DNA from: a virus
DNA: 34,447 bases
Virus record (IMG/VR): IMGVR_UViG_3300025759_000322
Span: 1-34,447 of that record
Reading direction: 5' to 3' (one strand)
Shown: piece by piece, positions 5,196-26,478 of the stretch
How positions within the stretch are numbered: the first letter of the stretch is position 1
Layout: each line of letters begins with the position of its first letter
Position numbers and translations under genes: made by a program
Notes under the pieces: model-generated
The model's input: only the letters and a program-made list of their open reading frames with translations
The model's database searches: none
Told to the model about the DNA's origin: nothing

Positions 5196-5223
5196 TTGAC
5201 AAAGAATTGAAGTGCGGTATAAT
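5196..5223 (+). promoter_or_regulatory. strong sigma70-type rightward promoter
   Basis: Consensus TTGACA (5196-5201), 16-base spacer, consensus TATAAT (5218-5223). The upstream 80 bases are very AT-rich. It is the best promoter in the window and should drive the lysis block and probably the genes beyond it. Confidence 0.85.
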
Positions 5224-8311: not shown

Positions 8312-8324
8312 CTGCATATCGGGG

Positions 8325-8353
8325 TTGCAATATTATCTGTAGTATGTTATAAC
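8325..8353 (+). promoter_or_regulatory. internal rightward promoter
   Basis: TTGCAA (8325-8330), 17-base spacer, TATAAC (8348-8353) in the gap before the DUF1127 gene. The box continues as TATAACTA, like the promoters at 5362 and 18845. The start would be about 8360, immediately before a hairpin. Confidence 0.55.
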
Positions 8354-8365
8354 TAAATGTGTAAA

Positions 8366-8410
8366 ACTATCTCCATAAAAGGCAGGAATGCCTAAACATA
8401 AAGGAGATAG
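8366..8410 (+). promoter_or_regulatory. 5' leader hairpin that buries the ribosome site
   Basis: CTATCTCC (8367-8374) pairs perfectly with GGAGATAG (8403-8410), which contains the Shine-Dalgarno site of the DUF1127 gene. Inside is a second hairpin, AGGCA (8380-8384) / TGCCT (8389-8393), with a GGAA (GNRA-type) loop. The folded form would block translation initiation at 8414. Confidence 0.65.
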
Positions 8411-8413
8411 AAC

Positions 8414-8554
8414 ATGTTTAAACGATTTGTAAAAGCAATCCAAAAAGGCCAAGAACGTAGGGCAGCATACTGGCAACTAAAGAATATGTCAGATAAACAA
8501 CTACGTGATATAGGAGTGTCTCGTGCCGAAATCGAAAGCAAAGTCTACCGTTAA
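8414..8554 (+). CDS. DUF1127 (YjiS-like) small Arg-rich protein
   Basis: A 46-residue protein, MFKRFVKAIQKGQERRAAYW followed by QLKNMSDKQLRDIGVSRAEI and a short tail. The second segment is the hallmark of DUF1127: L-x-x-(L/M)-SD-x-QL-x-DIG-(V/L)-(S/T)-R-x-(D/E)-I. In Alphaproteobacteria such proteins are abundant small regulators linked to growth and nutrient responses, possibly through RNA binding. That role is literature knowledge, not visible here. It has its own promoter and a ribosome-site hairpin upstream and overlaps the next gene by 32 bases, so it is regulated apart from its neighbours. Confidence 0.85.
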   Translation: MFKRFVKAIQKGQERRAAYWQLKNMSDKQLRDIGVSRAEIESKVYR

Positions 8555-8708
8555 TGCGGCAGGAAATTATACTAAGCCTAGTATGCGTAAACGTCTTGTT
8601 GCATCCGTTAAAGCAGGTAGCAGTGGTGGAAAGCCCGGACAGTGGTCGGCTCGTAAAGCCCAAATGGTCGCAAAGCAGTACAAAGCAAAAGGGGGAGGGT
8701 ACAAATGA
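8523..8708 (+). CDS. small conserved basic phage protein
   Basis: A 61-residue protein from a GTG start at 8523, with GGAG six bases upstream, inside the 3' end of the DUF1127 gene in another frame. The conserved tail GGKPGQWSARKAQMVAKQYK, ending in GGGY, is a motif I know from many marine phage proteins, but I cannot name its family safely. Lys/Arg/Gly-rich; role unknown. The stop overlaps the next start as ATGA. Confidence 0.7.
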   Translation: MPKSKAKSTVNAAGNYTKPSMRKRLVASVKAGSSGGKPGQWSARKAQMVAKQYKAKGGGYK

Positions 8709-21149: not shown

Positions 21150-22736
<1,587 letters not shown>

Positions 22737-22737
22737 T

Positions 22738-23160
22738 ATGGCATGGTTTTATTATTTTAATGCAGATAAAAGTTTTGCATACAGATGCGAAAACGAAAAA
22801 CTAAAAGACAGTGAAGTAGTTAAGCTAGGTAATGGTATTACTATGGTAGAGCTTTCAGAACTACCAACAGGGATGCCTGATGATGAGTGGAGTTTTGTTT
22901 CTGTTTTAGCTGATGGGTCAATAGGCATAGAACCCAATCTTATTTTTGGAGGAACTAAAAGATGCAGACGAAATCTAATAGATTATCTTCAAATGTATGC
23001 ACCTCTTTCTGATTTAGATCGTCCCGAAGATTGGAAACAACAATTAGATTGGGCCACATCTGAGTGTGGTGAAACTGTGGTAGAGCAGTTTTTAGCAGAT
23101 AGAGTTATTACTGATACTGAAAAACAGGAGTTGTATAGACTAGCTAATGCCCTTGATTAA
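22738..23160 (+). CDS. hypothetical protein after the collagen-like fibre
   Basis: A 140-residue protein starting MAWFYYFNADKSFAYRCENE. The start at 22738 is chosen over an upstream in-frame ATG because the earlier residues duplicate out-of-frame fibre sequence. The C-terminal half is helical and acidic (DWKQQLDWATSECGETVVEQ, DTEKQELYRLANAL). Its place right behind a fibre gene is the usual spot for fibre-assembly chaperones, so that role is possible, but no family is recognised. It overlaps the next gene by 14 bases. Confidence 0.65.
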   Translation: MAWFYYFNADKSFAYRCENEKLKDSEVVKLGNGITMVELSELPTGMPDDEWSFVSVLADGSIGIEPNLIFGGTKRCRRNLIDYLQMYAPLSDLDRPEDWKQQLDWATSECGETVVEQFLADRVITDTEKQELYRLANALD

Positions 23161-23647
23161 TAAACATAAACCCGACACTTTTATAACCTCTATATTAGAA
23201 CATATTATAGAAGAAGAATCACCAAAAATAAAAAAGGTAGTTGCAAAACGAAACCTCACAAAAGAGGTTTTTTTAGAAAGACCTATCCCACCCTTTGATA
23301 TAAAAGTAAATAGTTCAGGCGTTACTCTTGACCCTAAATATTTTGAAACACTAGACCCTTTAGCATCAACGTTAGGTGCTGTTAATTGTAGTGCTTCTCA
23401 TTATTTACCACCAAACTCTCAATTACCTTGGCATACAAATAGTGATACAGCAGGAAAAAGACTATACTATACTTATGGTGATGGTTCAGGTATTTTTAGG
23501 TATAAAGACTATAACACAGATAAAATACATGAAGACTATGATGAACAAGGTTGGACAGTGAGGGAGTTTTATATACCTTCAGATCAGCTTTTTTGGCACA
23601 CTGTTTATGCAGGAACAGGAAGACACACTTTTGGTTTTAGATTTTAG
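23147..23647 (+). CDS. 2OG-Fe(II) oxygenase-like protein 1 (HxN variant)
   Basis: A 166-residue protein with a double-stranded beta-helix pattern. LPWHTNSDTAGKRLYYTYGD supplies H96-x-N98, FWHTVYAGTGRHTFGFRF supplies a distal H151 and R159 or R165. This matches the His-x-(Asp/Glu)...His...Arg layout of 2-oxoglutarate/Fe(II) oxygenases, except that Asn replaces the acidic ligand, which could mean altered metal binding or activity loss. Similar proteins occur in cyanophages. Overlapped by both neighbours. Substrate unknown; the nearby fibre is the obvious candidate. Confidence 0.6.
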   Translation: MPLINKHKPDTFITSILEHIIEEESPKIKKVVAKRNLTKEVFLERPIPPFDIKVNSSGVTLDPKYFETLDPLASTLGAVNCSASHYLPPNSQLPWHTNSDTAGKRLYYTYGDGSGIFRYKDYNTDKIHEDYDEQGWTVREFYIPSDQLFWHTVYAGTGRHTFGFRF

Positions 23648-24524
23648 TAATCAAGCATTTCTTTGGGGAGAACTTAGAAAAAATAGTCCTAGAAAATTAG
23701 AAAAATTACCTATCGTAAAAAAATGTCTAGGCTCAATAGAAGGCAATTTTAGTCTTAGTTTTGAACAACCTCAAATAAAAGCTGATTATTATTTTTGTGG
23801 TGGGTTTGGAAACTTTGAGCATATAAAATTTACTAAAGGCATTTATTTTACAGACTATCCAGTTACAGAAGATTATAAAAACGCAGACACAAATGAACAT
23901 TACTATGAGTACTTTAAAACATTAGATAACGATAGGTACTCACAGCCTGACCAAGTGTTTGTAAAACAAAGACCTTATAATTTGTTTCCACTTCAGATGG
24001 TATATCCAAAAGACTATCACCAAACATTACATGCTTTAAAGTGGGCAACAGAATCTAAAAGGTACACAATATTTAAAACCCACCCTGCTCATAACGGTGA
24101 TCAAAACTATAAAGCCTTTTGGGGCGTAGCAAAAAAACTAGGAGTTATTTCTGAGTATACAGAGCTAGTTGATAATTACAGGTCTGAAGAGTTAGTTAAT
24201 GAAGCAGATATGATATTTAGTGCTGACAGTGCATTGACATTAAAAGCTGTACTTAAAAATATACCAACTTTTGCTATGCGTAATTTTCAAATGAATGATA
24301 TAGTACCTGTAATACCTGAGATACCTTTAGATATTAAAGTGCCTATAGTAAGTAAAGATAAAGCTATTAAATGGTTTGATTGGTTTTACAGAACTGTATG
24401 TAACGATATAACTAAAGATGACTTTAAAGATAAAATAAACCGCAGACTTAACCTATATAAAAATGGGGTAACAGACAAAGAGTTGCACTCATTAACGTTT
24501 TTAAAAAACAAAGGTTTGGCATGA
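23607..24524 (+). CDS. capsule-synthesis-like (GT-B) protein
   Basis: A 305-residue protein. The segment YTIFKTHPAHNGD (KTHP at 157-160), then a helical stretch, and NEADMIFSADSALTLKAVLK (198-217) follow the order of capsular polysaccharide synthesis proteins (KpsC/KpsS-like), where a K-x-HP motif and a (A)D-x-(I/V)-x-(S)-x-S(A/S)-x-x-x-E/K-A segment bind the nucleotide-sugar. So it is likely a sugar transferase, moderate confidence. Start uncertain: ATG at 23607 lacks a ribosome site, whereas TTG at 23631 has AGGA ten bases upstream. It overlaps the oxygenase gene either way and the next start by four bases. Confidence 0.55.
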   Translation: MQEQEDTLLVLDFSNQAFLWGELRKNSPRKLEKLPIVKKCLGSIEGNFSLSFEQPQIKADYYFCGGFGNFEHIKFTKGIYFTDYPVTEDYKNADTNEHYYEYFKTLDNDRYSQPDQVFVKQRPYNLFPLQMVYPKDYHQTLHALKWATESKRYTIFKTHPAHNGDQNYKAFWGVAKKLGVISEYTELVDNYRSEELVNEADMIFSADSALTLKAVLKNIPTFAMRNFQMNDIVPVIPEIPLDIKVPIVSKDKAIKWFDWFYRTVCNDITKDDFKDKINRRLNLYKNGVTDKELHSLTFLKNKGLA

Positions 24525-25015
24525 ACATATATAAAGAGCCGTGGACGCATATAGTAAAAGAAGATTTTTTTACTAATGTAGAAGAGCTTACACAAAAAAC
24601 AAAAGATGTAATTAAAGAAAGAACTCCATACGGTTTTCATAATAAGTTTACGATAAAATTTCCTTTTAAATATGACTTTCCAGACTTAGTACCTTTACTA
24701 GACTATTTTCCTAATAGAAGAAAGGCTTCAAGTTTAAACACATATTGGGAACTAAATGCAATTAAAGGTAAATACGAGTACCCTATACATGATGAAAACC
24801 CAAAAAAAGTTTTGTCTGTCGTTGTTTACTTAGACCCTATTAATAATTTAGGCACTTCTCTTTACGATAAAAACAAAAAGTTTTCAAAAGATATATTATG
24901 GAAACCTAACACTGCTTTTATTTTTGCAGGTATGACAGGGGAAACATGGCATAGTTATGCATGTAATACAGAAGAACCTAGAATAACTATTAATGGTTTT
25001 ATTCATGCAAATTGA
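24521..25015 (+). CDS. 2OG-Fe(II) oxygenase-like protein 2 (HxE variant)
   Basis: A 164-residue protein. YPIHDENPKKVLSVVVYLDP gives H90-x-E92, WKPNTAFIFAG is the usual strand before the second His, and WHSYACNTEEPRITINGF gives H144 and R154, in the standard order of the family. It follows the capsule-synthesis-like gene with a 4-base ATGA overlap, and the next gene starts within its last ten bases or so. Substrate unknown. The sequence differs from the two other oxygenases here, so they are not recent copies. Confidence 0.68.
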   Translation: MNIYKEPWTHIVKEDFFTNVEELTQKTKDVIKERTPYGFHNKFTIKFPFKYDFPDLVPLLDYFPNRRKASSLNTYWELNAIKGKYEYPIHDENPKKVLSVVVYLDPINNLGTSLYDKNKKFSKDILWKPNTAFIFAGMTGETWHSYACNTEEPRITINGFIHAN

Positions 25016-25940
25016 ACGTGCTGTTATAGAAATAAATGGGGGATGTAATTATTCTTGTGAAATGTGTCCTCAATCAGAAGGGAAAAGACCAAAAAGTTTT
25101 CTTAGGAAAATGCCTTTAAATCAGTTTGAGGATATTGTAGCTGAGTGTGTAGAGCATGGGACTAAAATTGTAAACCTTGAAGGATCAGGAGAGCCTACAT
25201 TAAATAGAAATCTTCCAAGATATATTGAGGTTGTAAGAAAATACGGAGCAAAGGCTTATATATATTCTAATGGTAAGAATATGCGTGGGTCTTTTATGAA
25301 AGAAACCGTTGATGCAGGGCTTAACTTTTTTAGATTTTCTATTATAGGTTACAACGAAGAGACATATAAAAAGTGGATGAACAGCCCTTTCTTTAACTTA
25401 GTCATACAAAATGCTAAAGAGATGCGACAGTATGCTAAAGATAAAGATTGTATAGTCGCAGCATATCATTTAATACTAGATAATGATAATGAGCCAGTAG
25501 AAGTAGAAGCATATAAATCTCTTTTTGATAATATGAATGTTGATATTTGGCGTATGCATAATTGGTCTGGTGTATATGAGTCTGACTATAAAAGAAAAGG
25601 TAAGATAGCAGGATGTGGAAGACCTTTCTCTCCTGATGTAGTCGTTAGGGCAGGAGGTAATGATGGTAATACAGCAGCAGTGCATCCTTGCTGTCAGGTT
25701 TTAGGTAATGATGAGGCTGCAGTATTAGGGCATTTAAGTACAAATACTTTAAAAGAAGTTTGGAATGGTAAGGCTTATAATAAACTAAGAGAACAACACA
25801 GAAATAAAGACTTCCCTGATTACTGCAAGTCGTGTGATTTTTTAGTTGAAGACCCTGAAGTTTTAGTGTATAGTAATAGTGACAGACATATAGGAAATAT
25901 GATTGGCACTAACTTTAATTTGAGGGAATACTATGCATAG
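25005..25940 (+). CDS. radical SAM protein with SPASM-like C-terminus
   Basis: A 311-residue protein. The radical SAM cluster C14-x3-C18-x2-C21 (INGGCNYSCEMCPQSEGKRP; counted from the ATG at 25005) binds the 4Fe-4S centre that cleaves SAM. NLEGSGEPTLNRNL is the SAM-contact GxxEP-like segment. The C-terminal Cys set (CGRPFSP, VHPCCQVLG, FPDYCKSCDF) looks like a SPASM/Twitch auxiliary-cluster domain, usual in enzymes that modify peptides or sugars. An in-frame ATG at 24993 is an alternative start. It lies between two oxygenase genes, overlapping each, which indicates a joint role in a modification pathway. Confidence 0.82.
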   Translation: MQIERAVIEINGGCNYSCEMCPQSEGKRPKSFLRKMPLNQFEDIVAECVEHGTKIVNLEGSGEPTLNRNLPRYIEVVRKYGAKAYIYSNGKNMRGSFMKETVDAGLNFFRFSIIGYNEETYKKWMNSPFFNLVIQNAKEMRQYAKDKDCIVAAYHLILDNDNEPVEVEAYKSLFDNMNVDIWRMHNWSGVYESDYKRKGKIAGCGRPFSPDVVVRAGGNDGNTAAVHPCCQVLGNDEAAVLGHLSTNTLKEVWNGKAYNKLREQHRNKDFPDYCKSCDFLVEDPEVLVYSNSDRHIGNMIGTNFNLREYYA

Positions 25941-26478
25941 ACCACTATGGCAATTATACGAAAACGCAGTAGATGAATTTCTTGTAAATAAAATACATGA
26001 CTTAGCTGAAGAAGAAACATTAAGTAAAGCTAAAACTTTTAATGATAACAATAAAGCTAGGTCTAGTGAAGTTACTTGGTTGTCTCATAATAAAGAACTT
26101 CAAGACTTTTTGTGGGACATAGTTCAAAATGCTAACAGAAATGTGTTTGGTTTTAGAGTAGAAAACTATGCAGACATACAATATACTTTGTATCATGCTG
26201 AACAAAACGGTCATTATGATTGGCATATTGATACAAATTGGTTATCTCAAACTTCTTTTGATAGAAAACTTAGTATAACAGTTCAATTAAGTGACTCGAC
26301 AGAGTATGAAGGTGGAGACTTTAGTTTCGCAGAAGTAGAAAACCCTAATAAAGAAAAACTTAAACAAAAAGGTACTGTCCTTGTTTTTCCTAGTTATCTA
26401 AGTCATAGAGTATCTCCTGTAACAAAAGGTACAAGATGTTCTTTAGTTGCTTGGTTTGAAGGTCCAAGATGGACATAG
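25933..26478 (+). CDS. prolyl-4-hydroxylase-type 2OG-Fe(II) oxygenase (PiuC-like)
   Basis: A 181-residue protein. NGHYDWHIDT gives H98-x-D100, KLSITVQLSDSTEYEGGDFS and GTVLVFPSYLSHRVSPVTKG give H158, and R168 binds 2-oxoglutarate. All ligands are present, in contrast to the two variant relatives nearby. The order matches the P4Hc/PKHD group, which hydroxylates prolines and related residues. Cyanophages carry similar genes. Overlaps the radical SAM gene by eight bases and the following gene by ten. Confidence 0.85.
   Translation: MHRPLWQLYENAVDEFLVNKIHDLAEEETLSKAKTFNDNNKARSSEVTWLSHNKELQDFLWDIVQNANRNVFGFRVENYADIQYTLYHAEQNGHYDWHIDTNWLSQTSFDRKLSITVQLSDSTEYEGGDFSFAEVENPNKEKLKQKGTVLVFPSYLSHRVSPVTKGTRCSLVAWFEGPRWT

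Follow-up and report, generated by a model that had tools for sequence, protein, structure and literature searches.

The window, a 34.4-kb IMG/VR phage contig of 38% GC, codes for an SU10-type portal and a P22-like coat, and its terminase is nearest to those of the roseophages CRP-9 (86%) and CRP-13 (84%). These CRP phages have been placed in the HMO-2011-type group, which has been described as dominant and widespread among marine viruses (PMC9038755). The window itself is likewise of the HMO-2011 roseophage type. The initial annotation had described a host-type DUF1127 regulator in this phage, and the Pfam search confirmed it: the open reading frame scored 36.7 bits against PF06568, above the curated cut-off of 23.3, and is a member of the DUF1127 family. 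The terminase and portal genes lie just beyond it. The phrog_17747 gene overlaps the end of the DUF1127 gene, so translational coupling may hand the control of DUF1127 on to this next gene. The coordinates of all features are collected in Table 1.

Several other features of the window were recorded. A perfect sigma70 consensus promoter (12/12) stands ahead of the rightward arm, with the leftward genes on its other side. The late region includes a cluster of small enzymes; judged by eye only, one of them has the CxxxCxxC motif and the look of a radical SAM enzyme, and the proteins around it are oxygenase-like. A fibre-like protein carries a collagen-type GPTGPTGPT repeat tract, and a 667-aa protein is made of short repeats (like GVSGTGSVGTL), with the strand opposite its gene also holding long open frames.

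Table 1 Features of the DUF1127 locus and other features recorded in the window.
Feature	Position	Strand	Basis or remark
Upstream box GCATATCGGGGTTGC (family consensus GCATAACGGGnTTGC)	8314..8328	+	logo of 44 aligned leaders; candidate activator site
P1, TTGCAA-17-TATAAC, extended TGt	8325..8353	+	sequence; predicted start about 8360
P2 -10 box, TAAAAC in the window	8362..8367	+	predicted start about 8374
5' arm CTATCTCC, anti-ribosome-site strand	8367..8374	+	folding
Inner hairpin AGGCA-GGAA-TGCCT, GNRA loop (stem 8380-8384/8389-8393)	8380..8393	+	folding; not family-conserved
3' arm GGAGATAG with Shine-Dalgarno GGAG (8403-8406)	8403..8410	+	folding
DUF1127 gene, 46 aa	8414..8554	+	Pfam PF06568, E 3.6e-9; phage homologues
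phrog_17747 gene, 61 aa, GTG start	8523..8708	+	32-nt overlap with the end of the DUF1127 gene
Sigma70 consensus promoter, TTGACA-16-TATAAT	5196..5223	+	
Fibre-like protein	21150..22736	+	
Small-enzyme cluster	22624..26478	+	
Radical SAM-like protein	24993..25940		by eye
Short-repeat protein, 667 aa	27170..29173	+	

The leader of the DUF1127 gene had been proposed to bury its ribosome site in a hairpin, and folding bore this out. In the predicted structure an 8-bp stem pairs CTATCTCC with the ribosome site GGAGATAG, and the RNA from 8350 to 8440 has a minimum free energy of -21.8 kcal/mol (z = -4.8), with 0 of 200 shuffles equally stable; here and below, all structure values are RNAfold predictions. 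The ribosome site had an accessibility of 0.20 in the read-through RNA of the window, and the same occlusion was found in 44 dereplicated relatives. A chance hairpin was ruled out by the z score, the occlusion in these relatives and the co-variation of the arms. The GNRA-capped inner hairpin that had also been described, with a 5-bp stem and the loop GGAA, is present in the window but absent from many relatives, and its role as a conserved receptor was rejected because it is not conserved across the family. Rfam covariance models gave 0 matches to the leader at the gathering threshold, indicating that it is not a known leader element, and an intrinsic-terminator-like site was not found between 8300 and 8400 on the + strand. 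An attenuator based on an upstream open reading frame was also rejected, as the only candidate is a 12-codon ATG frame (8357-8395) with no evident ribosome site; by inspection, this frame is missing in the close relative L017.

The initial annotation had further assigned the gene its own promoter. This promoter, P1, is present, with its -10 box TATAAC at 8348, and P1 RNA would carry the full hairpin; its start, like all starts given here, was predicted by counting 12 nt on from where the -10 box begins. A second, family-wide box, P2, had been missed; it is degenerate in the window, where it abuts the 5' arm, and its predicted start coincides with the end of the arm, so that P2 RNA would lack the 5' arm. 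Across the 44 leaders we observed a rigid composite element, in which GCATAACGGGnTTGC is followed by the P2 box 42-45 nt after its CGGG. The GCATAACGGGnTTGC box is an imperfect palindrome centred at about -54 from the P2 start, a position reminiscent of late promoters that depend on an activator, for example phage P2 Ogr. The P2 box reads TATAAY in 41 of the 44 leaders, TATACT in L063, and TAAAAC in the window and L075, and an extended TGn accompanies it in about three quarters of the leaders. P1, as TATAAC exactly +28 from CGGG, was found in about half of the relatives, and the remaining half lack it. P2 lies within the hairpin loop in one group (e.g. L002, L003, L030 and L059), while in the other leaders it adjoins the 5' arm. 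With either placement the predicted RNA excludes the anti-ribosome-site strand: in 43 of the 44 leaders the predicted P2 start falls on (within 1 nt) or downstream of the core of this strand, L093 being the exception.

DUF1127 was found by tblastn in eight CRP phages of the HMO-2011-type group. CRP-1 and CRP-2, overlooked by tblastn, have the gene together with the same promoter element, and CRP-603 is annotated with it (annotation only, its leader being outside the comparison); the gene is present in 11 of the 11 cultured HMO-2011-type roseophages examined. A DUF1127 match was absent from HMO-2011 (SAR116 host), HTVC033P (SAR11 host), a Manatee Spring relative and a Rhizobium relative, and the stretches examined of HMO-2011 and the Manatee Spring phage showed no sign of the promoter element. 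A scan of viral contigs confirmed 309 relatives and provided 80 loci, from which the 44 leaders were obtained by dereplication.

DUF1127 genes also occur in other phages. In the Cobavirinae roseophages SIO1, P12053L, CRP-4 and CRP-5 the gene, unannotated in SIO1, lies between mazG and ribonucleotide reductase genes, and the Autographiviridae roseophage CRP-403 has its copy at the corresponding place, with mazG on one side and the reductase gene on the other. The hairpin and promoter leader is absent at the DUF1127 genes of the Cobavirinae and CRP-403 (L008, L009, L010, L012 and L013, near 3001), which suggests that this arrangement is specific to the HMO-2011-type phage group. A hairpin that covers the ribosome site (CCTTTTTGG/CCAAAAGG) was also predicted for the DUF1127 gene of Sinorhizobium phage phiM12 (L014, near 3001), which lacks the roseophage promoter element.

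Burial of the ribosome site was near-universal and independent of sequence among the 44 dereplicated leaders. Its mean accessibility in read-through RNA was 0.11, versus 0.46 for leader shuffles, which were built on a shorter region, and 0.35 for 19 alphaproteobacterial DUF1127 genes. The mean was 0.42 for 89 other genes of CRP-13, CRP-3 and the window (Mann-Whitney p 2e-13 against the leaders), and modelled RNA from the P2 start was more open (0.74 on average) than its own shuffles (0.65, p 1.6e-4), both p values overstating independence because the leaders share ancestry. The arms of each leader paired better with each other (-14.6 kcal/mol) than with arms swapped between phages (-10.1 kcal/mol), and 0 of 20,000 permutations were as good; several pair types occur at each arm position, so that the arm sequences differ yet co-vary. 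Little occlusion of the motif taken as the ribosome site was seen in L077 and L093.

We also searched IMG/VR with the promoter DNA pattern alone, allowing a spacer of 28-33. Among 199 readable matches the spacer from the box to P2 was 31 nt in 168 and 32 nt in 29, and 198 had enough downstream sequence to be tested. A DUF1127-like gene follows 197 of these 198, including 181 with a recognised DUF1127 motif and 16 of the remaining 17, which were judged by reading to be diverged DUF1127-like frames; L302 is the sole match in front of an unrelated gene. The 77 dereplicated leaders from this search, a set that overlaps in part the first 44, gave accessibilities of 0.17 for read-through RNA and 0.79 for P2 RNA. 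The composite element scored well at a single place each in the window, CRP-13 and CRP-3, and the strict pattern, where it matched full-size records, occurred once per 53-57 kb genome, except for an 80-kb contig that has the locus twice (L069 and L070; IMGVR_UViG_3300046167_000032) and whose assembly may exceed one genome unit. Since the element is found at one place per genome, a general phage promoter serving many genes was rejected. A host origin of the element is likewise not supported, as its pattern occurred 34 times in 115 alphaproteobacterial genomes versus 59 times for the reversed control, which is background. Neither a described promoter or expression control in the literature nor a mapped transcription start in the literature and data searched was found for HMO-2011-type phages; the element described here gives them a well-delimited promoter that is open to testing and linked to a single gene.

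The gene, the complementarity of the arms, their co-variation, the promoter geometry and the uniqueness of the element can all be read from the DNA, and we consider it probable that the leader acts as a lock on translation that is coupled to a promoter, as in T4 gene e (lysozyme). RNA reading through from upstream genes on the same strand would hold both arms, fold and hide the ribosome site, and DUF1127 would not be made from it. RNA begun at P2 would be free of the anti-ribosome-site strand and would be translated. DUF1127 synthesis would in this way be tied to activation of a promoter that precedes the genes for packaging and structure, presumably by an activator acting at the -54 box. Given the place of the gene before those for terminase and portal, release of DUF1127 may signal the onset of late expression. 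In agreement with such a lock, the ribosome site is predicted to be paired in the read-through RNA of both the family and the window, and the promoter transcript is predicted to start past the 5' strand across the family, with a degenerate box in the window. Our confidence is greater for the family than for the window copy, whose P2 is TAAAAC: P1 looks stronger there and its RNA keeps the hairpin, so in the window the open isoform may be in the minority.

The element had been put forward as a compact switch dependent on temperature, a protein or a small RNA. Compact translational control is supported, and the triggers are not: the conserved promoter inside the hairpin points to promoter-coupled control, as in T4 gene e, rather than to any of them. 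A conditional switch on the P1 transcript, whose ever-present hairpin would be opened by a protein, a small RNA or DUF1127 autoregulation, draws on P1 being the better promoter in the window with an RNA that retains the hairpin, on RNA binding by the DUF1127 protein CcaF1 (PMC12501420) and on the regulation of a Sinorhizobium meliloti DUF1127 gene via its leader (PMC12218461). We nevertheless regard it as unlikely, because the leaders share no sequence or loop apart from their complementarity to the ribosome site, with no Rfam match, P1 is missing in about half of the relatives, and such a switch would not account for the P2 box that the whole family has next to the anti-ribosome-site strand. 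A hairpin that serves chiefly to make the message more stable, or to hold translation at a steady low level, with no role in timing, is quite improbable: an inner hairpin would lie near the 5' end of P2 RNA in many leaders, but many relatives have no inner hairpin, and the position of P2 is constrained relative to the arm. Even less credible is a DNA operator for a repressor with the RNA hairpin as by-product; the arms overlap or flank the -10 box, as an operator might, yet it is their ability to pair with the ribosome site that is preserved, and their sequence, spacing and placement vary (around the -10 box in some leaders, downstream of it in others). An RNA thermometer, in which heat would melt the stem and free the buried ribosome site, can be dismissed almost entirely, since the predictions for 4 to 50 C show no melting of the stem and almost constant occlusion, both for the window and for the family mean, and many stems are long and near-perfect.

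Host DUF1127 proteins bind PhoR, and CcaF1 binds RNA (PMC12501420), which makes the suggested role of the phage protein as a host takeover tool plausible. The proposed lock raises the question of why a DUF1127 regulator is under such tight control in these phages. More speculatively, and with low confidence in the whole, the observations could be joined into a two-isoform timing device of HMO-2011-type roseophages, with P1 (closed) and P2 (open) starts 14-15 bp apart, a phage-specific late activator, and late DUF1127 acting on the host sensor kinase PhoR or on RNA.

Fold-back inhibition of the IS10 transposase also relies on a hairpin that forms only in RNA entering from outside; IS10 is a transposon end, whereas a conserved phage promoter is involved here. 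S. meliloti duf1127_1 (PMC12218461) is likewise a DUF1127 gene under leader-RNA control, but it uses a translated upstream open reading frame and probably Rho-dependent termination, and no conserved upstream frame was seen in the roseophage leaders. Host DUF1127 proteins (Agrobacterium SDPs, CcaF1 and YjiS; PMC12501420) belong to the same small arginine-rich domain family; their genes are chromosomal, and the alphaproteobacterial leaders sampled are less occluded (0.35 vs 0.11). The closest precedents for hairpin-guarded ribosome sites are the T4 genes e, soc, 49 and I-TevI (PMC3014915, PMC2988022). For gene e and I-TevI, long early transcripts are silent and transcripts of the hairpin-embedded promoter are translated (PMC3014915, PMC2988022), resembling the roseophage leaders, in which read-through RNA would hide the ribosome site and the gene's own transcript would lack the 5' strand; the two late promoters just upstream of gene e are a further likeness. 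Unlike in T4, the late promoter TATAAATA is absent, and a sigma70-like TATAAY box, mostly extended by TGn, was found instead together with the box at about -54. The guarded gene also differs, being a host-type DUF1127 regulator ahead of packaging genes, and a T4-style hairpin lock would here be present in a phage group unrelated to T4.
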